From Anaerolineae bacterium (lineage in GTDB: Bacteria; Chloroflexota; Anaerolineae; Anaerolineales; Villigracilaceae): a stretch of DNA of 58,269 nucleotides. Positions 3,001 to 46,984 of this stretch are shown one piece after another. The translations under genes were made by a program, and so were the position numbers. Positions within the stretch are counted from its first letter, which is position 1, and each line of letters starts with the position of its first letter. The notes below the pieces were generated by a model. The model made no database searches. It worked only from the letters and a program-made list of their open reading frames with translations, and had not been told where the DNA came from. The stretch covers positions 1 through 58,269 of the forward strand of contig JAFLCE010000014.1 of the NCBI GenBank assembly GCA_017303655.1, in the 5' to 3' direction.

Positions 3001-4823
3001 TCAAGGCTGAAGATCAGCGGCGCGCCGCGCGGATCCGCATTCGGCGAAGCCTCAAGCAAGGTGGAAGCCCGAGCAAGCACGAGGTCTGGTTGAGCCGCAG
3101 CGGAGATGGAGATGTTGACAGGTCCCGTGGCTCCAGCCGCGTCACGCGCAAAGCCAAAGGTCACCTCGCTTAACATCCCATCTTGATTGGGAACAAAGCT
3201 GGTGATGTAGGGAGCACCGCCGGTGATGAGCAATTCAGACGGAATACCAACCGGTTGCCTGTATGTGCCAGTTTGAGTTTGAATGGAGAGATTGACTCCA
3301 GCAGGTGCATTCTCGAACAACCAGCGCGTTGCCGCCATGCGAGTCTCGGGTCGCAGGTAAATGCTTTGAAAGGCGAACGCCCAAACCGTTGTAGCAATAA
3401 GAACAGCAATGCCCAACACTCCACCGGCAAGACTGATGAAGTTAAAGCGCGTAATGGGTTGCGGTTTGGAACGTAGTAGTTCAAAAATAAACCAGGCAGC
3501 CATCATGCACAAAAGCGGATAGACCGGCAGTTGATAACGCATGGTGGGGTTGAATTGCAAAGACTGCCAGCCGAAGTAAAAAGCTGTCCAGCCCCACAAG
3601 AGGAGGTGTTTGTATTCGCCTTTGAGAATACGCCAGCCCATGAGCAGGAAGCCCGCCCAGGCAAGTAAGCCAAGCGGAAGCCCAAGCCCCCACACAGTGA
3701 GATTCTCGAAAGAATACAAATGCGTGCGGCGTGCCCACTGCAAATTCCAAGGCAGGTCTGAGAGACCGGTTGCCTGCAAGCGTTGTTCGGCAATGCCTTT
3801 GATCCAACCTTCATCTAATAGAAGTCCATTGAAGGCATAGGGTTGAAAGATACGAAAAGAAATCAACGTGGCAAGCCCACCCGCCACAAGAAAAGCCAAG
3901 ACCTCAAGGAAGTAATTCACATCCAGTTTGCGCGCACGATCATAGACGAGCCAGCGCACGAAAAATGCAAAAGGCAAAACAATCGCCATGGCTGCCGCAT
4001 TGATCTTGGATGCCATCGCCATGCCCAGCGCCAACCCAAAGGCTATGCTGAAAAAGAAAAGCGGAGATTTAAAGATTTGAGTTATGAGTAATGAGTTGCC
4101 AGCAACGAGTTCTTCCTCGTTACTCGGATCTTGTCCCTCGTCACTCTCCTCATCTTCTACTTTAATGATCGCCGCATCAGATTCATCCACGGCTTCTTTT
4201 TTCTTTGCCTGCCATTCCAAAATTTCAACGGCAAAGATCAACCCGAGGAACAGGAAGGTATTCACGAACAGATCTGATGTGAAAAAATGCGATTGCTGGA
4301 TCTGCATCACTGCCAGCGATGAGAACGCTGCGGCAAAAACACCCACCTTACGACCATACAAACGCGAAACAATCAAATACAAAAAGAAGATCGCGAACAA
4401 GTCTGCAACAGCAGAGACTTGCCGCGCAAAGTACTTGGAAGCACCGAGGGCACTCTGGTCACTCGCTTCCATCAGCACGCGGGTCAACGTCATTGGCAGG
4501 TTGCCGTAGACAAAGAAACCGTATCCGCGCACAGCCGGGTTGAGTGTGGAAGTGGAACTATTGAAGTATTCGCCAATCGTCATCCAACGACGGTTCTCGG
4601 GCAAACAGCCATCCACTGGAATTGCCGGGTCTTCACAGGCTTGTGCCCGCAGATTATCCAACACACCGGAGAGGAACAACTCATCGGGATGTTGATGATA
4701 GCCTTCGCCCCAGTCGTATCCGCCAATGCGTAAATAGCCCGCCATGAGCAGAATGAAGATGAAAAGAATATCGTAAAGCCAGGCGCGTTTTTCGTTGTTC
4801 ATATTTTGTTGTTTACTTGGCAT
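1..4823 (-). CDS. DUF2298 (Chlor_Arch_YYY) giant membrane protein with GT39-like N-terminus, partial
   Basis: The reading frame is open from an ATG at 4823 to the left edge, giving about 1607 codons with the C-terminus missing. The start at 4823 lies 9 bp after the preceding stop; an in-frame ATG at 4802 is the alternative. The N-terminal part (about residues 1-560) has many hydrophobic helices and GT39-like motifs, including HPDELF near residue 40 and a QQSHFFTSDLF stretch. A soluble domain follows. The second half shows the DUF2298 hallmarks: a YINYYYYGF tyrosine run near residue 1011 and SDLHAHM near 1176. The family is known from Chloroflexota and archaea and its biochemical role is not established; membrane glycan transfer is an inference from the GT39-like half and the glycan operon. 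An acidic loop near residues 224-247 is encoded by a 7-bp-phased palindrome, described separately. Confidence 0.85.
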   Translation of the reverse strand, partial: MPSKQQNMNNEKRAWLYDILFIFILLMAGYLRIGGYDWGEGYHQHPDELFLSGVLDNLRAQACEDPAIPVDGCLPENRRWMTIGEYFNSSTSTLNPAVRGYGFFVYGNLPMTLTRVLMEASDQSALGASKYFARQVSAVADLFAIFFLYLIVSRLYGRKVGVFAAAFSSLAVMQIQQSHFFTSDLFVNTFLFLGLIFAVEILEWQAKKKEAVDESDAAIIKVEDEESDEGQDPSNEEELVAGNSLLITQIFKSPLFFFSIAFGLALGMAMASKINAAAMAIVLPFAFFVRWLVYDRARKLDVNYFLEVLAFLVAGGLATLISFRIFQPYAFNGLLLDEGWIKGIAEQRLQATGLSDLPWNLQWARRTHLYSFENLTVWGLGLPLGLLAWAGFLLMGWRILKGEYKHLLLWGWTAFYFGWQSLQFNPTMRYQLPVYPLLCMMAAWFIFELLRSKPQPITRFNFISLAGGVLGIAVLIATTVWAFAFQSIYLRPETRMAATRWLFENAPAGVNLSIQTQTGTYRQPVGIPSELLITGGAPYITSFVPNQDGMLSEVTFGFARDAAGATGPVNISISAAAQPDLVLARASTLLEASPNADPRGAPLIFSLDTLVPLKKGESYTLTIETTSAALSIEGSAIANETDYDWGLPFRIDGYDPYSGLSGLYSNDDLVLQVYWGEDFNKLNRYIDILSRADYIVVPTNHQYAQITRLPERYPLTTLYYRELIGCPENEDIIQCYRLAELGSYEGRLGFELVQTFESYPTLGPIVINDQSAEEAFTFYDHPKVLIFKKTADFDAEKLRVVLNTVDLSKVVQLAPTQFNDYKTLMLPEETLATQRAGGTWSDLFDYDWLQNKYPALGGLLWYAFIFVLGLFAYPIARLALPGLKQYAYPLGRIVGLVLLAWISWMGGSVGVPYTRVSIGVAFALVAVTGVGLWLRRKQQFRDDWEHRRFFVMAELVFLAFFLIDLLIRFGNADMWHPAKGGERPMDFSYFNAVLKSTSFPPYDPWYAGGYINYYYYGFVLAGTPVKLLGIVPSIAYNFILPTWFALVAVGAFTIGFNAVDTYKQKNEAGQPLSFNLQLLSGLTASVMAILLGNLGTIQAIFNALQRIAAPGGLVPADTGFFQHWAWAFQGLWMMFSQQVTLPLGRGDWYWFPSRVIPPGPGNEITEFPLFTFLYSDLHAHMLVMPLALFIIAWALAFVRARAKLTLGEWIASFAIGGLMIGTLKPTNTWDLYTYYLLAAIATAYTLFRYFEWKDYFGLPAWVGKTGLAVGAMALLYILGALFYLPFSQSFGQAYNSVSFWQATRTPLSSYFTQWGLFLFIITAWLIWETREWMAATPVSRLSHLRNYVIWFEVALAAFIAFLVFFLVEGAGVGFIALPLALWAATLMLRADLPDSKRFILFLIGTALTITIAVEFIALVGDIGRMNTIFKLYLQAWMMFAVSAAAAFGWLLPVFNAWLPKWRLTYQTGVIVLAACAFMFTMTGSMDKVSDRMNPEAPLSLDGMEFMAHSELWDGQVMDLSEDYRAIRWMQDNVEGSPVIVEANCTEYRWCTRFTIYTGLPGVVGWNWHQRQQRGIFAPQVQTRVDEVLSFYTTTEIQIALNFLRRYD
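4084..4150. repeat. 7-bp-phased palindromic repeat inside a coding sequence
   Basis: Inside the DUF2298 gene, GAGT/CGAG cores at 4086, 4093 and 4107 are followed by inverted CTCG cores at 4116, 4123 and 4137 and a CTCT at 4144. All spacings within each arm are 7 bp or multiples of 7. Because 7 is not a multiple of 3, this periodicity cannot come from a repeated peptide. It encodes an acidic cytoplasmic-looking loop and leaves the frame open. The same CGAGTAA unit occurs between genes at 54588-54617. Confidence 0.7.
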
Positions 4824-38415: not shown

Positions 38416-39090
38416 ATGCAACCGAAAATACGCGTGGCAATCCTGGACGATCATCCTATGATGTTGGAAGGTTATCTTTCAAAACTCAGGCATGACCCCC
38501 AGATCGAAGTGACCGCCACCATGAGCGTCGCTGACTTATTGGAGCCGGTGCTGCAAACAGCGGAAGTGGATGTTCTGATTCTGGATGTCAGCGTGCCAAC
38601 CTCGGCGGAGAATCGCAATCCATACCCGATCCTGCATGTCATTCCAAAACTGCTGGAAGAATACCCCAACCTGAACATTCTGGTCATCAGTATGCGCATC
38701 GAACGCGGGCTGATTCGTGAAGTGATGGCGGCAGGTGCGAACGGCTACATTCTCAAAGACGATCCGCTCGCCAATGCCAACCTGCTCGCGATCATCAAAT
38801 CTGTGGCAGAGGGCGGGGTATACCTAAGTGAAGAAGCTGGCGCGTTATATGGCAAACATCTTGCCAACGAAGGCGGCAAGCAGCTCAGTCCACGTCAACT
38901 CGAAGCGTTATCGTTGTGCGCTTCACAACCGGGAGCCAAAAGCGTCGTCCTCGCCAAAAAGATGTGCATCACGCATTCAGCCTTCCGTACCTTACTTTCC
39001 GGCGCGTATATCAAATTGAAGGCAGCCAACCGAACAGAAGCCATCGCGAAGGCAAGGCAAATGGGGCTGATCACGCCCGATCAAGATTGA
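38416..39090 (+). CDS. NarL/FixJ-type response regulator
   Basis: 224 residues with ATG at 38416 behind an AGGGAG site. The receiver domain has the acidic pair in ILDDHPMM, the phospho-acceptor Asp in DVLILDVSVP (near residue 54-58), and Lys in GYILKDD. A LuxR-like HTH follows from about residue 155 (QLSPRQLEALSLCASQPGAKS ... FRTLLSGAYIKLKAANRTEA). The HTH is somewhat divergent from the usual ExxVLxLxAxGxSNxEIA pattern. It precedes a histidine kinase of the NarX/HisKA_3 class on the same strand, the natural partner. The 257-bp gap to that kinase holds a 19-bp perfect inverted repeat. Confidence 0.88.
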   Translation: MQPKIRVAILDDHPMMLEGYLSKLRHDPQIEVTATMSVADLLEPVLQTAEVDVLILDVSVPTSAENRNPYPILHVIPKLLEEYPNLNILVISMRIERGLIREVMAAGANGYILKDDPLANANLLAIIKSVAEGGVYLSEEAGALYGKHLANEGGKQLSPRQLEALSLCASQPGAKSVVLAKKMCITHSAFRTLLSGAYIKLKAANRTEAIAKARQMGLITPDQD

Positions 39091-39173
39091 GGCGTTACTG
39101 CGTCGCATCCGCTTCGTCGAGCAGACGAAGCGCCCGCCGAATCACATCCTCAAAAATAGTTTCGATCATGCCA

Positions 39174-39217
39174 GCAGTTCCCATACGGTTGAGCTTGGTC
39201 AACCGTATGGGAACTGC
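39174..39217. repeat. 19-bp perfect inverted repeat between response regulator and kinase
   Basis: Arms at 39174-39192 (GCAGTTCCCATACGGTTGA) and 39199-39217 are exact complements with a 6-base loop. No T-run follows in either direction. The remaining gap 39091-39347 contains no convincing gene, but a TATAAT at 39289-39294 may serve the kinase. Confidence 0.85.
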
Positions 39218-39347
39218 ATCATTTCATCTTCTCCCTCTGATTTGATCGATTTAACAACGTAAATGTACGGGGACAGAAGTACTCGGCTATAATCGAACCA
39301 CCTCCTTTCAAAACAATAATCAGATCAGTATTCACAGGATAACGAGT

Positions 39348-41555
39348 ATGAAGACAATCTCGAACAATCGTAGTGAGTTCATCGAATCCCTTTTCTCATT
39401 AGGGGTACTGTTTGTGCTGCTCATATTCACTTTTGGAATTCTGGTTACCGCCCCTTATTCAGGGTTTTATTTCAACCCCATAAATGGGCAGATCGAAGTT
39501 GTATTCGCCGACGATGAATCACTCTTGAAAATGGGAGATAGCATCGAACAGATCGGCGATATTTCGTTTACGCAATTCAAATCCGATAGAAGGTTGGTGT
39601 TATTTCAAGAAGCTATCAAGGGGGAAGTCATCCAAATTAAGGTAATAAGGGAGGGAGAACCCATCACCGTTTCATGGGTTTTCCCAGGCTTCACGTTGCA
39701 AGAGTTTTCCAATCGGCTGTTCAACGCCTGGATATTGGGCTACGCCTTTTGGCTGGCGGGGTTTACAGCGCAGCTTTCCATCCGCCCACGCGATGTACGC
39801 AGAAGATTATTCATTGCCGCCAATTACCTGATCGCCATTTTTTTGGTATCCGGCAGCCTTTCCTCCTTCCATCTTTGGGAAAGCTCCACCTTCCTCCACA
39901 TCTCCGCATGGCTCGTGATGCCTATCTTCCTGCAACTGCATTGGGAATTTCCGCGCCTGCTGGGGAAAACCTCAAAATTATTTTGGGGCGCTCTTTATAC
40001 AATCGCTTCTCTGCTTGCTTTAGGAGAGTTAGCCCATGTATTACCAAGAAATCTGTATGCATTCGGTTTCCTTGTGGCAATATTGGGCAGCGTCATTCTC
40101 TTACTCGCCCACCTTCTCATTCAAAAAGAAGAACGCCAGACCGTCAGCCTGCTTTTGTTCTCGATCTTCATTGCCTTTTCATTCTTCATTGTTGCAGTCG
40201 TGGCAGTGGCATTTGGAAACGTTATTTATGTTGGCTGGTTCTCCATCTTCTCCATGCCATTTATGCCGCTGGCATATTTCTACCTGATCTACCGCCGTCA
40301 ACTGGGCGGCATGGAAACACGCGTCAATCGCATCATCTCCACATATACCTTCCTCATCATCCTTGGACTGGTACTCTTCGTCATCGTCATCAGCCTATTG
40401 CAAACTCAGATCGCTCTTGAATTCTGGTCTTTCATCGCCGTCGGCAGCGCATTCCTCACCAGCCTGAGCACCATCGCATTTCTGCCGCGCTTTCAAGCCT
40501 TTGTAGACCAGCGTCTTTTCGGCATCAAACTCCCCTATCAAGGCTTGCCCGAAATCTACTCCAGCCGCATCGCCACCTGCGAGAACCTCCCCAACCTGCT
40601 CGCCCTGCTTGAAAACGAAGTTTTCCCCAGCTTACTCGTCCGCCAATATGCCTTCGTGCAATCGAACGATCAACACCTCAAAGCGTTGCTTACTAAAGGC
40701 ATTCCGAGTGATTTATTCGACACCCAAAACGCCGGACGTACCCTTCCCAGCCAGCCACAAGAGGATTGGATACGCCTCACCCTTCCGCTCAAAGTGGGTG
40801 ACACCATCCTTGGCTTTTGGTTACTTGGCAAGCGTGACCCGGATGATCTGTATCCACAGGTTGAAATCCCTATCCTGCAATCGCTCGCCAACCAGACCTC
40901 CATCGCCTTCAGCAACATCCTTCAAACCGATCAGATCCTCAGCATCTACCAGATCGACCTCGAAAAGATCGAAAATGAACGCAAACGCATCGCACGCGAC
41001 CTGCATGACCATGTGTTGAACCAAATCGCCGCCATGCGCAACAGCCTTGACCCCAAAACCCTCCCGCCCACATTCCTCGAAACGTACGAAGACATCAAAC
41101 TCCGTGTGCGCGAGATCATCAACGACCTGCGTCCAACCGTCCTCGATCACGGACTGGCTTTTGCGCTCAGGGAATATATCGAAGACCTCCGGGAAAAGCA
41201 TCCAAACATCAATATCATCTTCAATATCCAAGCCAGCGAAGAGAGAATTCCCGAAAAGATGGAAGAACATATCTACTATATCGTGCGTGAAGCCTGCGAG
41301 AATGCTTTACGGCATGCCAATGCCCGCACCGTAGAGCTTTCTGGCGTCATCACTCCCGGGCAGGTCAGCCTCGCCATACAAGACGATGGTGATGGATTTG
41401 CTTCGACGGGCGAGATCAATGATTTGATCGCCAACCGTCACTTTGGGTTAGCCACCATGAAAGAACGCGCTCACCTAGCCGGGGCAACCCTTGAGCTACA
41501 TTCCCAGCTACAAGCAGGTACCCAAGTCAAAGTCATATGGATTGATAAAGAATAA
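39348..41555 (+). CDS. membrane sensor histidine kinase (NarX/HisKA_3 class) with GAF and PDZ-like sensor
   Basis: 735 residues with ATG at 39348, preceded by AGGA. One N-terminal helix is followed by about 80 extracytoplasmic residues (DDESLLKMGDSIEQIGDISF ... EAIKGEVIQIKVIREGEPITVSW) resembling a PDZ-type fold. Seven or eight helices follow (about 125-350), then a GAF-like region (about 420-530). The HisKA_3 box ERKRIARDLHDHVLNQIAAM puts the phospho-His near residue 553. The ATPase has the N box REACENALRHANA, G1 DDGDGF and HFGLATMKERAHLAGA. It should phosphorylate the adjacent response regulator in response to a membrane or envelope signal. The PDZ-plus-polytopic sensor is less common than simple periplasmic sensors. 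Confidence 0.9.
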   Translation: MKTISNNRSEFIESLFSLGVLFVLLIFTFGILVTAPYSGFYFNPINGQIEVVFADDESLLKMGDSIEQIGDISFTQFKSDRRLVLFQEAIKGEVIQIKVIREGEPITVSWVFPGFTLQEFSNRLFNAWILGYAFWLAGFTAQLSIRPRDVRRRLFIAANYLIAIFLVSGSLSSFHLWESSTFLHISAWLVMPIFLQLHWEFPRLLGKTSKLFWGALYTIASLLALGELAHVLPRNLYAFGFLVAILGSVILLLAHLLIQKEERQTVSLLLFSIFIAFSFFIVAVVAVAFGNVIYVGWFSIFSMPFMPLAYFYLIYRRQLGGMETRVNRIISTYTFLIILGLVLFVIVISLLQTQIALEFWSFIAVGSAFLTSLSTIAFLPRFQAFVDQRLFGIKLPYQGLPEIYSSRIATCENLPNLLALLENEVFPSLLVRQYAFVQSNDQHLKALLTKGIPSDLFDTQNAGRTLPSQPQEDWIRLTLPLKVGDTILGFWLLGKRDPDDLYPQVEIPILQSLANQTSIAFSNILQTDQILSIYQIDLEKIENERKRIARDLHDHVLNQIAAMRNSLDPKTLPPTFLETYEDIKLRVREIINDLRPTVLDHGLAFALREYIEDLREKHPNINIIFNIQASEERIPEKMEEHIYYIVREACENALRHANARTVELSGVITPGQVSLAIQDDGDGFASTGEINDLIANRHFGLATMKERAHLAGATLELHSQLQAGTQVKVIWIDKE

Positions 41556-41639: not shown

Positions 41640-42674
41640 TTATTCCAGCATCAAACGGATAAATTCAGGGGCAATCGCAGGGTCAAAATGCTTCCCGATC
41701 TCACTGCGAATGTAGCGTAGCGCATCTGCGCGCGACCATGCTTTTCGATATGGGCGATCAGAAGTCAGGGCATCATAGACATCGGCGAAGGCGAAGATAC
41801 GTGCCGCGAGCGGAATGTCCTCGCCAGCCAGCCCATCGGGGTAGCCGGAGCCATCCCATTTTTCATGATGCGAACGCGGAATGAACAACGCCGGTGAGAT
41901 CTGCGGCACCTGTTCCAGCAGGTCTACTGCAATGGTAGGGTGCAGGCGCATCAACTGCCATTCTTGCGGGGTGAGCGAACCCGTCTTCAATAAAATCTCA
42001 TCAGGGATGGCGATCTTGCCAATATCATGCACTTCCGCGCCGCGTTGAATATGCAACAGCTCTTCTTCTGGAATGCCCAGCCGCCGCGCAAGTTGAACGG
42101 TCATTTCTGCCACACGGCGGGTGTGGTCTTCGGTTTCAAAATCACGCAGATACAAGGCATGTGACCAGCCTTCGATCATCTTATTAATGGAGATAGGCAG
42201 GTTGGCAATGGTGCGGGAAATAGCCTTGTATCGATTGACATTCCAAATGAACAGCACCCATTGATTCCCAAGAACAGGGATCAAGCGAAACTCATACCAG
42301 GAAGCTCTATTTGGCGACGACGCCAACATGCTCTCGAACAGAATAAAACGTCGCGAGTTTCGAATTTGCTCCAGGGCTTGCTCATATTTCTTGAGTGCGA
42401 GCGTGGGCAATACGTTTTGAATGAAGAGCTCATTCGGCTCGAAAGAAAATATCGTAGACCGGGAACCCGCCTGCGCCTTGCAGTTAATCACCCTACCACG
42501 TTCATCCAACACCAAGAGAATATCGTCCAACTCCTTTAGCATGGCTAACAAGCCTTGCTCAGGACCCGTGGGAGCAAAACAAGCACTCGCCGAAACATGG
42601 ATGCCCACACTCTTTTGCCTTCCGATGTTTTCGGTTTGCTCCGTATTGGAAGCGATAGAGAAACGAGATACCAT
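41640..42674 (-). CDS. HD-GYP-domain phosphodiesterase with N-terminal PAS-like domain
   Basis: 344 residues from ATG at 42674, 2 bp after the stop of the small NHLP-like gene; a longer frame would overlap that gene. A PAS-like region (about 35-155: LDDILLVLDERGRVINCKAQ ... WYEFRLIPV) precedes the HD-GYP domain. The metal ligands are in EDHTRRVAEM, the HD pair in EVHDIGKIAIPD, and HHEKWDGSGYPDGLAGEDIP gives the GYP signature. AFADVYDALTSDRPYRKAW is the last conserved block. It likely hydrolyses cyclic di-GMP or cGAMP-type second messengers. No GGDEF partner is present. It is the last gene of a four-gene operon with a 49-residue peptide, DUF5317 and an NHLP-like protein. Confidence 0.9.
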   Translation of the reverse strand: MVSRFSIASNTEQTENIGRQKSVGIHVSASACFAPTGPEQGLLAMLKELDDILLVLDERGRVINCKAQAGSRSTIFSFEPNELFIQNVLPTLALKKYEQALEQIRNSRRFILFESMLASSPNRASWYEFRLIPVLGNQWVLFIWNVNRYKAISRTIANLPISINKMIEGWSHALYLRDFETEDHTRRVAEMTVQLARRLGIPEEELLHIQRGAEVHDIGKIAIPDEILLKTGSLTPQEWQLMRLHPTIAVDLLEQVPQISPALFIPRSHHEKWDGSGYPDGLAGEDIPLAARIFAFADVYDALTSDRPYRKAWSRADALRYIRSEIGKHFDPAIAPEFIRLMLE

Positions 42675-42676
42675 TT

Positions 42677-42967
42677 TTAGTCGGCAGTGCCTAAGGTGTA
42701 TACCTGCCGCGCCAGATCGGAAAGCGTTTCGGCGTGGATGGAGGCGATCAACTCCCATTCTTCGGAAGTGAGCGTAAAGGTTTCACCGAGGTAGCCATTC
42801 TTAAGCGCCTCGCGCGGATTCTTGAGGAGCATGTCACAAAATTGACGGTTGACCACGGCTGCGGCAAAAACTCGATTCAACCCATTGGAGCGAGTGCGCT
42901 GAGGCTGGGTCTGAGTCTGAGGTTGTAAAGAACGTTTCGTAATAGAGCGAGGCGAAGCAGCTAGCAT
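42677..42967 (-). CDS. small NHLP-clan-like protein of unknown function
   Basis: 96 residues with ATG at 42967. The first 28 residues are Arg/Gln/Thr-rich and probably disordered. The rest is helical with the pattern FCDMLLKNPREALKNGY, then LTSEEWELIASIHAETLSDL. This resembles the NHLP clan of RiPP leader-like proteins (Os1348 or franean1_4349 type), where a helix with F-x-x-x-L-L-x-x-P-x-x-A-L is conserved. A classical GG cleavage site and a core rich in Ser/Thr/Cys are not seen, so it may be a standalone helper rather than a precursor. It lies 10 bp after DUF5317 and 2 bp before HD-GYP. Confidence 0.6.
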   Translation of the reverse strand: MLAASPRSITKRSLQPQTQTQPQRTRSNGLNRVFAAAVVNRQFCDMLLKNPREALKNGYLGETFTLTSEEWELIASIHAETLSDLARQVYTLGTAD

Positions 42968-42977
42968 GATGAGTCTC

Positions 42978-43508
42978 CTAAGGTTGAGGTTTGAGTTTGG
43001 GCTGCCAGGCTAACAGCCAAAAGGCACCGATAGCGATAAAAACGTCACCCAGGCTAAAAGCCACCTGGTAGAAGAACCAGCTCGGAGTGAGGAAACGATC
43101 CGCGAGCCACTCGAAGCGCGTCCCTTCTGGCGGCAGGAGAATGTCTTTTGCGCCGAATAAGGTTCCGGCGGGGTAATCCAAAAGATTTACCTGCGTGAGC
43201 CTGCCTGCTGTTTCAAAACTAATGGGCATAAAACCACCGTTGGCAAGCATGACGATAAAATTCAACGCTGCGCCAACCAGCAAGATCTTCATGCCCAGAT
43301 GAGAACTGTTTAGAAGCACAAACCCGATGAAAAGCAGTTGCGAAGCGAGGATCGGGAGGCGGTTAGCTTGCTCGATATATTGCAGGATGAATGCCACCAA
43401 GACCAGCCACAAGGTACGAAGTTTGGGCGCTTCATACGGGACCTGATGCTTGCCAGCCCACCCCAAGCCGACCAGCAGCCCGAGGGCGACTCCTGCCAAT
43501 AAGATCAT
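42978..43508 (-). CDS. DUF5317-family membrane protein
   Basis: 176 residues with ATG at 43508, 2 bp after the stop of the 49-residue peptide gene. Five or six helices are predicted. A loop reads LANGGFMPISFETAGRLTQ, the recognisable block of DUF5317. No enzyme motif is seen. DUF5317 genes are mostly known from Actinobacteria and Chloroflexota and are reported without a function. The tight spacing with the peptide gene and the NHLP-like gene suggests it could be a transporter, receptor or processing factor for the peptide; this is inference only. Confidence 0.75.
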   Translation of the reverse strand: MILLAGVALGLLVGLGWAGKHQVPYEAPKLRTLWLVLVAFILQYIEQANRLPILASQLLFIGFVLLNSSHLGMKILLVGAALNFIVMLANGGFMPISFETAGRLTQVNLLDYPAGTLFGAKDILLPPEGTRFEWLADRFLTPSWFFYQVAFSLGDVFIAIGAFWLLAWQPKLKPQP

Positions 43509-43510
43509 GC

Positions 43511-43660
43511 CTAGCGCGGACCTACCCCACCGCCATTATCCATAGGCGCACCAACGCCAATCACAAGCATGGCGAGGGTCATGAGAACCAGCGCAAGTTG
43601 AATGTGCTGGCTACTGATTTTTTGGGTGTACTGGACGAAAAGTGCGAAATTCTTATTCAT
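43511..43660 (-). CDS. 49-residue hydrophobic small protein, possible signal peptide or pheromone
   Basis: The gene is short enough to be missed by ordinary gene finders. ATG at 43660 has AAGGA 8 bases upstream and TAG at 43511. The protein has a basic and polar N-terminus (MNKNFALFVQYTQKISSQH), one hydrophobic helix (LALVLMTLAMLVIGVGA) and a short Gly-rich tail (PMDNGGGVGPR). The layout fits a single-pass peptide or a precursor whose Gly-rich tail is released; a Pro at the expected +1 position argues against ordinary signal peptidase I cleavage after GVGA. It is the first gene of the operon and is followed after 2 bp by DUF5317. Function is unknown. Confidence 0.7.
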   Translation of the reverse strand: MNKNFALFVQYTQKISSQHIQLALVLMTLAMLVIGVGAPMDNGGGVGPR

Positions 43661-43744
43661 GGGAACATCCTTTCTCTTACTTTCACGGAAACGATGCGCA
43701 TAAGATAGTCCGCCCCAGGCTTCAAAACAGGCTTCAAAAATAAT

Positions 43745-43770
43745 AAAAACAGCCGTTGTCGGCTGTTTTT
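43745..43770 (-). terminator. intrinsic terminator after the SARP/MalT regulator
   Basis: An 11-bp stem AAAAACAGCCG / CGGCTGTTTTT with a 4-base loop overlaps the stop codon of the regulator gene and gives a T-run on the minus strand. It separates that gene from the peptide operon. Confidence 0.85.
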
Positions 43771-46700
43771 AGGTAGTCAATTTACGGTAGAGCGCCTCCG
43801 TTTCTGGAGAAGGTGGCATGTTGAGGTGTTTTCGCAAAGCCGCTTTACACGCCTCGTAGGTCTGTAAGATGGCGGCACGGTTATTCATACGGTGATGGAT
43901 CTGCATCGTAAGACGGTATGCCGCTTCATAAAAAGGCTGGTATTCCACTGCCCGCTGGCAAATGGATAAGGCTTCATTTAACTTGGCTTGCTTTTGATAT
44001 AACCCCGCCAAGGCGAGTAATGCTGCCAGATACTGCTGATCCAGCCGTTCACGGTCAGCCAGGACCCCGTCCAGGTAAATATCATTGAGATATGGACCCC
44101 GGATCAAGTCTATCGCTTTACGATAAAACTCGATCTGTTCCTCTGCCTGTTGAGACGCTTGCGCGCGTGCCAGGTGTGACTCAAAGGCTTCAATATCGTA
44201 TTCATAATTGAGACTACGATTGAATGAGTATTTGTTGTTCTCAAAACGGATGGCTTCATTCCCAACCGCACGGCGCAGGCGGTACATTTCGTTCTTAAAA
44301 CGCAGACGCACCTTGGCGGAGTCATCCAGATCGGGCCAGAATTGTTCTGCCACCTGTTCTTTCGTAAGTGGGTGGGGCTGAGTGAGGAAGAAGAAAAACA
44401 ATTCACGCACCGATTGGGTTTGCCAATCGGAAAGCACCAGTTCCCTTCCACCAACGGCAACTGTTGAGTTTCCAAAGCCCTTAATAACAAGATGTGCAGT
44501 AGGCACTTCCACAACCCGTGCCTGACGGCGGATCTCGCGCCGTACAGCCGGGATATGAGCGGATAGTTTTTCGCCGCGGAGCAAAATGTCGCGCACCCCG
44601 CGCCCGACATCCGGGTCTTTTTGCAAACCTTCTAACCACTGCCTGGCTTGATGCGCCGCGAGCCAGGTAATATGCTGGGGCTTATCTAGAACCTCGCCTA
44701 TCTTTTCAACTGCATTGGCATGGCGCTTGCCCGCCATATATGCAGCAGATAACCATACCCGGGCAGAGATGGTCTCAAGTGTGAGACCATCTTGAATGAA
44801 TGCGGACTCGGCTTGTTCCAGTAGTTTTATGGATTCAGAAATATTGCCAGTAAGCAGGTGATATTTCCCGTTTAATAGATACAGGAGCCCATTATCATAA
44901 TGCGATTGGCTAGCACCAGCCATTTGCGTAAGTTCATGAATCAGTTTCTCCGTAGCGGGAAAATCCGCCTGAGCCAATGCCAGATTTGCCTGCCCAACCC
45001 GCAGAGAGAAAAGCAAAAAATAATCATGTAATTCTTGCAGCAGTTGTTCGGTACGAGCATAATTCTGTTTGGCGGTTTCCACATCCTGTAATTCTGCGTA
45101 CAAGTCTCCGATACTAATGGAGAGTAACGTTTGCAGACGAGTATGCTGGCTGCGTTGAGCGCAGAGCAGCCCGCTTTCAAAAGCGAAGGCAGCCTTCTCA
45201 TACATTCCCCTATGATGATACATATAGCCTATATTGTTTAGCAGACTGGCTTCTTCGATAAGGTTGAATTTCTCTTTATAAATATTCAAGGCTTTATTGA
45301 AGTTCTTTTCTGCTTCTTCGTACATTCCGAGATAATAATGCAGCAAACCAATATCAGCGAAAAGCCGGGGAAGTATTTTTTTTTGTTTATCCAAATGAAT
45401 ATAAATATCCAACATTTTTTCAGATACTTTCAAGGCACTGCGAATTTTCCCCAAACTCATCAAGATCGAGACTTTCCCTTGAAGAGCTTCCGCATAGAGA
45501 AATTGCAGATCATCTCGGTCTTCGATCAGCCGGATGGCGTCTTCTGTATCCTGCATAGCGGTTTGATGATCACCAAGATATCTATATCCGAAAGAACGCC
45601 GTATCAATGAAAGCGCCAGATGTGGAATATCTTCGCTCGCACGGAACAGTTCAATAGCCTTGTTGAGCTCTACCAGCCCACCTTGTGTATCGCCCTTGAT
45701 AAGTTTCAGAGTCCCTGTAGTGGAAAGGATAAACGGATGGTTCTTTAAAATAGAGGGCGGCAGGTCTTGCAACCAGATTTCAACAAGACGGGTCTTGTCG
45801 TACAGGTCGTTAAAACTTGATATGTCGATCAATTCTATCAAGGCATCCACATCGCCCAGTGTATGGATAATGGCAAACGCTCGTTCCCATTCGCTCAGCG
45901 CTTCATAGGCGCGGCTCAACCGCTCCAGAATGGGCTTGATCTCTTCTGCCTTTTCCTTTTCCATACGCTGACGGAGATAATCGCGGAATAAATGATGATA
46001 GCGTAGAGACCGCCCATCTGCACCGACGGGAATTGCAAACAAATTATTCTTCAAAATGGTCTGAATGAAAGCTTGCCAATCTTGTTTCTCAGCATACAAT
46101 GGGGCTAACACAGCTTCACACAAGGCGGCATCGAACTCTTCCATCAGCGAGGTCCGCAACAGGAACTCAAGGATGTGCGGTTGTTGTTTATCGACTACTT
46201 GTTGCCCCAGATAATCGAATAGCCCCACGCCAGTGTTTAAGATCGGTTTGGTATTATCTTTTCGGGCAATCGAATTCCCCGAGAATTGCAAACCTGTGAT
46301 CCAGCCTTCGGTTTCATCGATCAGGTGCTGGGCTTCTTCATCAGAAATATGGATGTTGTGGTTTTGCAGGAATAATGCCTGAAGCTCTTCGGTATGAAAG
46401 GCAAGGTCAGAGAAGCTCAAGCCCGTGACTTGCTCGCGTGCCACCATCAAAGGCAGGTCAGCCAGGGTGGTGAGGGTGCGCGAAGAAACGATCACATGAC
46501 AATTTTCATCCACCAGTTGGATGAAGCGGTTTAAAAAGTTGTAGATCGGTTGGGAAGTTTCCAGGATGTGAAAATCGTCGAGGATCAAAACAAAATGTTC
46601 GTGGATGGAAGCGAAGGTCTCATTGACCAGAGAGACTGCCAGCCGCTCCATATCCTCTTCAAAGGAGTTGACCGAGTCCATCACCGCCAGGGTTTGATGC

Positions 46701-46984
46701 CCAACGCCGGGGAAACGCTCTGCAATAGAGGCGACCAGATAGGCAAGGAAGCGCTGTGGGTCGCGGTCTAACTCATCGAGCGAAAGCCAACAGCATTGGT
46801 ACTCGCTTTGCAAAGCGACATCAATCAATAATGAAGTTTTGCCATACCCCGCTGGGGCAGAGACGAGCACCAGTTTGCTGTCTAGGGCGTCGAACAGAGT
46901 ATCTAACAGCCGCTTGCGCGCCAAAAGTTCGGTGCGCCTGCGAGGTGGAATGATCTTGGTTTTACTAACAGGGACTGATGCCAT
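43769..46984 (-). CDS. large STAND (MalT-like) regulator with C-terminal BTAD/SARP module
   Basis: 1071 residues with ATG at 46984. The NTPase domain has Walker A SAPAGYGKTSLL (about residue 40) and Walker B FVLILDDFHIL, with WLSLDELDRDPQRFLAYL typical of MalT. TPR-like helical repeats span about 390-830. Unlike MalT there is no C-terminal LuxR HTH. Instead an OmpR/SARP-type winged helix (about 840-930, with FWPDLDDSAKVRLRFKNEMYRLRRAVG) is followed by a BTAD bacterial transcriptional activator domain (about 940-1070). Such proteins sense a ligand through the TPRs and activate nearby or distant genes. It lies upstream of the peptide/HD-GYP operon on the same strand and is a candidate regulator of it. 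Confidence 0.9.
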   Translation of the reverse strand: MASVPVSKTKIIPPRRRTELLARKRLLDTLFDALDSKLVLVSAPAGYGKTSLLIDVALQSEYQCCWLSLDELDRDPQRFLAYLVASIAERFPGVGHQTLAVMDSVNSFEEDMERLAVSLVNETFASIHEHFVLILDDFHILETSQPIYNFLNRFIQLVDENCHVIVSSRTLTTLADLPLMVAREQVTGLSFSDLAFHTEELQALFLQNHNIHISDEEAQHLIDETEGWITGLQFSGNSIARKDNTKPILNTGVGLFDYLGQQVVDKQQPHILEFLLRTSLMEEFDAALCEAVLAPLYAEKQDWQAFIQTILKNNLFAIPVGADGRSLRYHHLFRDYLRQRMEKEKAEEIKPILERLSRAYEALSEWERAFAIIHTLGDVDALIELIDISSFNDLYDKTRLVEIWLQDLPPSILKNHPFILSTTGTLKLIKGDTQGGLVELNKAIELFRASEDIPHLALSLIRRSFGYRYLGDHQTAMQDTEDAIRLIEDRDDLQFLYAEALQGKVSILMSLGKIRSALKVSEKMLDIYIHLDKQKKILPRLFADIGLLHYYLGMYEEAEKNFNKALNIYKEKFNLIEEASLLNNIGYMYHHRGMYEKAAFAFESGLLCAQRSQHTRLQTLLSISIGDLYAELQDVETAKQNYARTEQLLQELHDYFLLFSLRVGQANLALAQADFPATEKLIHELTQMAGASQSHYDNGLLYLLNGKYHLLTGNISESIKLLEQAESAFIQDGLTLETISARVWLSAAYMAGKRHANAVEKIGEVLDKPQHITWLAAHQARQWLEGLQKDPDVGRGVRDILLRGEKLSAHIPAVRREIRRQARVVEVPTAHLVIKGFGNSTVAVGGRELVLSDWQTQSVRELFFFFLTQPHPLTKEQVAEQFWPDLDDSAKVRLRFKNEMYRLRRAVGNEAIRFENNKYSFNRSLNYEYDIEAFESHLARAQASQQAEEQIEFYRKAIDLIRGPYLNDIYLDGVLADRERLDQQYLAALLALAGLYQKQAKLNEALSICQRAVEYQPFYEAAYRLTMQIHHRMNNRAAILQTYEACKAALRKHLNMPPSPETEALYRKLTT

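Follow-up and report, generated by a model that had tools for sequence, protein, structure and literature searches.

Most known intracellular peptide pheromones come from Bacillota. In the RRNPP(A) systems of that phylum (Rap-Phr, PlcR-PapR, Rgg-SHP, AimR-AimP), the gene for a cytosolic tetratricopeptide repeat (TPR) receptor is followed by one for a short precursor, which carries a hydrophobic segment and a short C-terminal tail. RRNPP propeptides with several pheromone units exist, according to one account (PMC11343458); another describes the sites of SARP regulators as direct repeats of heptamers, spaced 4-15 nt apart and overlapping the -35 element (PMC10972967). The locus considered here lies in an Anaerolineae bacterium of the Chloroflexota (assembly GCA_017303655.1, contig JAFLCE010000014.1; the whole stretch analysed, 58,269 nt, is called the window). 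It holds a SARP-type regulator, a 49-residue peptide, a DUF5317 membrane protein, and a small NHLP-like protein. Our inclination, a modest one, is to read it as an autoregulated peptide-ligand circuit: a loop of the RRNPP kind built on an unrelated receptor.

Four open reading frames (ORFs) follow one another on the minus strand at spacings of 2, 10, and 2 bp. They encode the peptide precursor (43511..43660), with a basic N-terminal part, a hydrophobic segment, a GVGAP motif, and a Gly-rich tail; the DUF5317 protein (42978..43508); the NHLP-like protein, of Os1348 type (42677..42967); and an HD-GYP phosphodiesterase (41640..42674). A previous, sequence-only reading gave this order and spacing, and the ORF coordinates agree. 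It also put a SARP/MalT regulator upstream of the peptide, where a 1071-residue protein is indeed encoded, on the same strand and directly adjoining (43769..46984). That the regulator is the peptide's most constant partner (22 of 22 and 20 of 20 loci in two samples described below) escaped that reading, as did the promoter repeat. Because it lies on the same strand and directly upstream, the regulator is counted here as a member, and five-gene cassette is a better description of the unit. Its conserved part consists of regulator, peptide, DUF5317, and NHLP-like protein; HD-GYP looks like an add-on.

Judged by constraint and synteny, the easily missed 49-codon ORF is a real gene, as the sequence-only reading had proposed. 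Among pairs of peptide genes at least 70% identical, summed nonsynonymous over summed synonymous divergence (dN/dS) is 0.18, and 113 of the 114 pairs have a dN smaller than dS (genes are shared among pairs and same-locus copies are included, hence the pairs are not independent). The frame is thus constrained, and relatives with HD-GYP and DUF5317 and no short peptide ORF yielded no clear case. DUF5317 is present in 75 of 301 genomes of the order, and the peptide adjoins it in 72: upstream in 68 and downstream in 4 (G249, G261, G279, G295; here and below, G and L numbers are our handles for genomes and loci). Adjacency was judged by match positions in 24 of the 75 and by reading fetched regions in 51. 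As for the remaining three, contig ends cut two (G169, G248), and G296 holds a decayed DUF5317 with a tail-only 26-residue ORF. Among 22 loci retrieved with DUF5317 as sole query, the peptide ORF lies upstream of DUF5317 in all 22, with an NHLP-like ORF downstream in 22 and HD-GYP in 21. The peptide matches no family in the Pfam and NCBIfam libraries. A leader peptide or upstream ORF serving DUF5317 was considered and set aside: the peptide also occurs behind DUF5317 (L084, L086, L087, L090) or without it.

The regulator comprises a MalT-like STAND ATPase, a TPR superhelix, and a C-terminal winged helix with a BTAD domain, the combination typical of SARPs (Pfam BTAD 63.9 bits against a cut-off of 22.1; TPRs are also matched by Pfam). 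Its AlphaFold 2 (AF2) model, with a mean predicted local distance difference test score (pLDDT) of 89.5, matches in Foldseek a MalT-system structure (8bob_C), a STAND-TPR protein (6mfv_A), and the DNA-binding domain of AfsR (8hvr_I). The best match, 8bob_C (TM-score 0.86 of target), is titled as the structural basis for negative regulation of the maltose system. MalT thus shares the STAND-TPR fold; it has, unlike this regulator, a LuxR-type DNA-binding end and a sugar ligand, and against the NCBIfam MalT model the regulator scores 203.8, below the cut-off of 537. The Streptomyces SARP and SARP-LAL regulators (AfsR, PimR, SanG) have in common with it BTAD and winged helix, a STAND-type ATPase, and TPRs, whereas here the DNA-binding part is C-terminal and the proposed target is a peptide operon rather than an antibiotic cluster. 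With RRNPP systems the locus shares a TPR receptor gene beside a short propeptide, but the receptor is a 1071-residue STAND-TPR-SARP protein, not a small helix-turn-helix (HTH)-TPR protein, and shows no homology to Rap, Rgg, NprR, PlcR, PrgX, or AimR in its domains or among the best 50 of 196 Foldseek matches at E≤0.001, which include no RRNPP receptor. The cassette further differs from RRNPP in its phylum, in forming an operon with DUF5317 and the NHLP-like protein, and in the arginine spacers of its repeat forms.

A 12-bp direct repeat resembling a SARP site stands 57 bp before the peptide (TTTTGAAGCCTGTTTTGAAGCC; the elements TTTTGAAGCCTG-TTTTGAAGCC at 43718..43739, minus strand), and 10 nt after it follows a -10-like element, TATCTT (43702..43707, minus strand). 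Direct repeats at the target promoter characterize SARPs, and the candidate site shows them in sequence at a period of 12 bp; PMC10972967 gives a classical period of 11 bp and a position near -35. The core dyad of the repeat recurs in 25 of 25 same-family loci, where the commonest dyad in each of ten shuffles reached 3-4 loci. At three or fewer mismatches the host's own assembly (4.6 Mb) contains two sites, one in the window and one on contig C26, each right after this regulator; a reversed control gave none. Upstream of 119 peptide genes, the box occurs with at most five mismatches in 68, against 0 of 119 on the opposite strand, and with at most seven in 81, against 1. A motif-free test of 66 distant loci found an 8-of-9 direct repeat at 12 bp in 39 and at 11 bp in 10 (shuffled means 0.4 and 0.9). 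Of 67 boxes, 46 are followed at exactly 10 nt by the sequence TAnnnT, and 17 by none. Each copy has its own box in the arrays of L121 (four distinct copies tested) and L117 (three); internal copies of other arrays are mostly boxless. These patterns suggest that the regulator may bind the 12-bp repeat.

Contig C26 (L198, G000:C26) runs colinear with the window over three pieces of 3451, 3975, and 1096 bases, at 85-87% identity, and ends just before the peptide start; it probably stems from a second strain in the bin (contamination 5.82%). Its regulator was tried as a paralogue and rejected, the colinearity marking a homologous contig, perhaps of another strain. Elsewhere, the 22-bp repeat lies 52-65 nt before HU-like genes (L216:4134-4526, L218, and L213, with 0, 1, and 0 mismatches; G272, G209), assigned by Pfam for L216 and by likeness of translation for L218 (minus strand, from about 4263 down) and L213 (from about 3246). 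It also precedes small LuxR-type HTH genes (L224:4610-4813, and L215 on the minus strand; 3 and 2 mismatches; G118, G038) and a response regulator gene (L212:2841-3284, 0 mismatches, G252). With boxes before such genes, the circuit may control more genes in those species.

Regulator and peptide are the constant pair. The regulator precedes the peptide on the same strand in 22 of the 22 DUF5317-retrieved loci, at about 400 nt or less in 21 and at 2.1 kb in L052. It lies at most 700 nt upstream in 20 of 20 class-level loci fetched by peptide, a non-random choice among the stronger hits outside the order. In these 20, DUF5317 is present in 16, the NHLP-like gene in 14 (plus L185 by eye), and HD-GYP in 1; contigs of L174, L178, L186, and L191 end soon after the last cassette gene seen, so that missing genes there cannot be judged. 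From the opposite direction, 26 of 61 family genomes hold the regulator at E≤1e-150, and a peptide of the cassette kind follows in 25 (in one, G167, without membrane segment). The contig of the 26th, G173, ends about 460 nt behind the regulator, where a diverged box is followed by a different ORF, MNEEKLETPDEPIELTVEELPEYILTLCCGVGCGGGLK; this Cys-rich 38-residue ORF precedes the start of an ABC-transporter-like frame (L222, about 3420 to 3897). Perhaps the same regulator drives another class of peptide there. For eight genomes of the order, reading 3.9 to 6.6 kb showed no regulator ahead of the peptide. A single strong, full-length relative is encoded elsewhere in seven, with 39-43% identity to the L088 regulator (that of G297, L245, has one TGA inside the matched stretch); in G144 (80% complete) no relative appeared at E≤1e-60. 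The 700 nt behind the unlinked regulators contain neither a cassette-type peptide nor the repeat. The 9 kb fetched around another SARP-like gene of the host genome (L199) held no such peptide.

Which part of the peptide matters is suggested by one genus (g3; 18 genomes, the regulator in 15). In seven loci there (L227-L233), an ORF between regulator and NHLP-like gene has no hydrophobic segment and keeps the tail: once in L232; three times in L227, L229, L231, and L233; and five times in L228 and L230, with spacers of Arg-Arg (Arg-Arg-Arg in L233). All seven have a direct repeat at 12 bp (9 or 10 of 10), whose end lies 45-49 nt ahead of the start codon. Synonymous and replacing codon differences between units number 14:2 in L227, 9:0 in L229, 28:0 in L230, 4:0 in L231, and 13:0 in L233, together 68 and 2; L228 has 24 and 33 because its end units differ. 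A tail active solely in the membrane or outside the cell should have been freed from constraint once the membrane segment was lost, yet the constraint persisted; on the plain reading, the tail would be read in the cytosol, where the regulator sits. In the window, the corresponding tail is APMDNGGGVGPR, residues 38-49 (codons at 43514..43549, minus strand); its position follows from the ORF, and its proposed role as signal from the tail-only forms.

Loss of the membrane segment goes with loss of DUF5317, which was found in the fetched stretch of none of the 15 g3 regulator loci. Within the 301-genome draw from the order, tail-only genomes G167, G218, G258, and G274 have no DUF5317 match and G296 a remnant; tail-only genomes G943 and G946 fall outside that search. 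Six further g3 loci lack GxGAP, and four of them have a weaker hydrophobic segment than every locus with DUF5317; no peptide was found in L237, and L241 is cut. Where the locus has DUF5317, 105 of 107 peptides carry a GxGAP-like motif; where DUF5317 is missing, 2 of 19 family-level loci do (class-level L182, L185, and L192, which have the motif, and cut L186 are excluded from the 19). In the two exceptional genomes, G236 and G930, a DUF5317 cassette lies elsewhere (L111, L219); the same is true of G282 (L126), whose second, DUF5317-less copy lacks the motif. Against this link, L182, L185, and L192 keep the motif with DUF5317 undetected beside them (the rest of those genomes was unsearched). 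The regulator tree places tail-only forms at two points (L227-L233; L130), few events, each with DUF5317 loss or decay. The plain reading is that DUF5317 would deal with the membrane form of the peptide.

Across 119 peptides the tail after AP measures 5-19 residues, with a median of 8 (the split failed for L103 and one L117 copy, and some start codons are uncertain, as in L113 and L186; opposite-strand spurious hits L092 and L104, L135 with no cassette beside it, and N-run copies of L084 were left out of the peptide analyses). The shortest form, in L086, is a 28-mer in four copies: a bare signal-peptide-like stretch plus tail. Eight loci contain non-identical copies. With all pairs counted, tails are more alike than whole N-terminal parts in seven of the eight (L121 reverses); eight of eight is obtained if pairs whose N-terminal parts are at least 0.97 alike are excluded. 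Compared with the 25 residues before AP, tails are more alike in six of eight (L093 and L121 reverse). Between loci with N-terminal identity of 0.5-0.8, mean tail identity is 0.41-0.52.

DUF5317 scores 88.6 bits in Pfam (cut-off 25), and its AF2 model (pLDDT 94) has no match in the PDB at E≤0.001. S152, G154, and D155 (S-x-G-D), along with D137, are invariant in 70 of 70 aligned members; we take S-x-G-D to be reminiscent of a membrane aspartyl protease motif, a likeness only. DUF5317 is a candidate cutter or exporter of the peptide's membrane form. The NHLP-like protein, described in the sequence-only reading as resembling RiPP leaders (RiPP, ribosomally synthesized and post-translationally modified peptide), does show likeness to the Os1348/NHLP model, but stays below every curated cut-off (Frankia_peptide 18.3 against 48; NCBIfam Os1348 family 33.2 against 40). 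Four relatives reach 26.2-31.7 bits with the Os1348 model, so that 5 of 5 members scanned are below the curated cut-off, and a PDB sequence search found nothing at E≤1. A role as RiPP precursor was rejected on these Pfam and NCBIfam scores; by eye, the C-terminal ends vary in length and sequence, with no evident core. Os1348 itself is an 85-residue, antibiotic-related Pseudomonas protein, whose crystal structure is unlike others in the PDB according to PMC7726476. The locus shares its domain, at sub-threshold score, but sits in a regulatory cassette and has no recognised modification gene beside the NHLP-like gene.

The last gene is of the HD-GYP phosphodiesterase type, as predicted: Pfam HD_5 gives 133.5 bits (cut-off 27.2), and the translation holds HDIGK and HHEKWDGSGYPDG, which we take to be the HD and HHE..GYP motifs. 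The sequence-only reading imagined a peptide circuit feeding second-messenger turnover. Its first half has strong indirect support in constraint, synteny, promoter element, and tail-only repeats; its second is weak. Given a single HD-GYP gene among 20 distant cassettes (at least four, L174, L178, L186, and L191, being cut), a second-messenger circuit was set aside as the core, and cyclic di-GMP turnover is at most one lineage's output.

These observations suggest a model, drawn from sequence patterns: constraint, synteny, the repeat and its rarity in the host assembly, tail-only repeats, and the family-level linkage of motif and DUF5317. The regulator would bind the 12-bp repeat and turn on the operon of peptide, DUF5317, NHLP-like protein, and (where present) HD-GYP. 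The hydrophobic segment would take the precursor to the membrane, where DUF5317 would help to cut or export it near the GxG-A-P motif. The C-terminal tail, some 8-12 residues from AP, would re-enter the cytosol, probably via oligopeptide importers, and bind the regulator's TPR superhelix, which would complete a positive feedback loop like that of RRNPP receptor-propeptide pairs. Thus the tail is the putative ligand of a cytosolic regulator, and the peptide is presumably secreted and re-imported. Oligopeptide-binding proteins are matched 12 times in the host genome, 10 of the matches exceeding the cut-off; because such proteins are common in bacteria (11 of 14 control genomes), they lend import weak support.

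Several results weigh against this model. Three copy pairs of L121 have identical N-terminal parts and tails only 0.62 alike, and L093 reverses once the N-terminal part is shortened to 25 residues. Co-variation of tail and TPR over 63 loci is slight (partial r 0.09, matched by 96 of 1000 permutations), and the N-terminal part tracks the STAND domain better (0.31, matched by 0 of 1000), which perhaps reflects shared ancestry only. A proline right after the cut is poor for signal peptidase I, and because proline follows the presumed cut, the site is unsure. Thirty-eight of the 119 peptide genes have no box at seven or fewer mismatches, and boxes are missing from many internal tandem copies; some genomes carry extra boxes before unrelated genes; and in G173 regulator and box precede a Cys-rich ORF instead of a cassette peptide. 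Finally, tail-only precursors have no export signal, so the signal of that branch may remain wholly intracellular.

The last point counts in favour of the chief rival, a cell-autonomous feedback, which we hold to be unlikely while giving it more credit than any other. Here the tail would be an intracellular brake or co-factor of the regulator, not an intercellular signal, tethered at the membrane by the hydrophobic part, much as MalK holds MalT, and released by DUF5317. The MalT-like receptor fold, with a best Foldseek entry on negative regulation, suits this, as does the tracking of the STAND domain by the N-terminal part. The bare signal-peptide-like 28-mers do not, and tandem copies and multiplied tails fit the dosage of a released peptide. 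A split RiPP system is less probable still. Its tail would be the core, the NHLP-like protein a leader in trans, and DUF5317 a maturase or exporter, the product being a modified signal or antibiotic. It draws on the sub-cut-off likeness to the Os1348 NHLP-clan model, on the link of Os1348 to antibiotic activity (PMC7726476), on arginines between repeated tail units, and on L084 and L086, where NHLP-like and peptide genes interleave. The regulator and box of G173, with the Cys-rich ORF and ABC-transporter-like frame, recall RiPP clusters and raised our estimate slightly, at a very small cost to the cell-autonomous rival. Yet all five NHLP-like members score below cut-off, tail-only precursors persist where DUF5317 is gone, and ORF maps of 11 loci, inspected by eye, reveal no additional gene of the cassette between the regulator and HD-GYP (neighbours were unsearched by family, and maturases genome-wide).

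Two further explanations dispense with a signal. As a small membrane partner of DUF5317 with a structural tail, the peptide would account for the family-level association of GxGAP with DUF5317, but the tail survives loss of both membrane segment and DUF5317, and L182, L185, and L192 have the motif with no DUF5317 detected beside it; we think this quite improbable. Least credible of all is a type I toxin-like membrane peptide: the product is short, hydrophobic, and sometimes in tandem arrays, but it has a fixed place behind regulator and promoter repeat, and soluble forms exist.

A profile search matches 87 of 396 class genomes at E≤0.01, a figure that includes lipoprotein signal peptides (L196, L197) and hits in long frames, so the true count is lower. 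In a phylum draw of 301 genomes, 15 match at E≤0.001, all within the class, one of them a lipoprotein (G314, L196). Weak peptide matches L137-L139 have no cassette. Named records retrieved with DUF5317 are mainly Anaerolineales or Chloroflexi metagenome-assembled genomes. One, labelled uncultured cyanobacterium (L052), holds an Anaerolineae-type cassette, groups with G605 in the regulator tree, and is probably misbinned or mislabelled. L131 and L132 share the same peptide, with near-identical match statistics, in a DUF5317-less cassette of two families (G236, G121), reflecting recent transfer or binning error. The interleaved NHLP-like and peptide genes lie behind DUF5317 at L084:7076-8352 and L086:6932-7612, with the regulator elsewhere in the genome.

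Around the window's cassette, an intrinsic-terminator-like hairpin marks the end of the regulator gene region (43744..43771, minus strand; 1 found, shuffles mean 0.6). The two-component pair noted in the sequence-only reading is present on the plus strand (38416..41555), but is partly conserved: near the 22 loci, several of them short, a sensor kinase occurs in 7 and a response regulator in 2.

Literature searches, which left most subscription journals outside, returned nothing on DUF5317, no Anaerolineae peptide pheromone, and no SARP quorum sensing in Chloroflexota; RRNPP with Chloroflexi turned up work on Streptococcus, and a broader search brought up no title on such a system. The locus may represent a peptide signalling system of a kind so far undescribed from Chloroflexota. 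Bolder, and in our view possible rather than probable, is a new class of bacterial cell-cell signalling, the first peptide signalling in the phylum as far as those searches reach. It would pair a STAND-TPR-SARP receptor with a tail acting as autoinducer, make DUF5317 a new membrane factor for peptide processing or export, and include, in one branch, a soluble poly-signal precursor resembling a miniature prohormone, its units spaced by arginines.

In Anaerolineae, organisms difficult to cultivate, a receptor family of another kind seems to have arrived at the logic of the Bacillota pheromones. The model yields an initial hypothesis, open to testing, on DUF5317, on the ligands that large SARP regulators bind, and on a standalone NHLP-like protein, and short synthetic peptides read from the genomes would allow a direct test.

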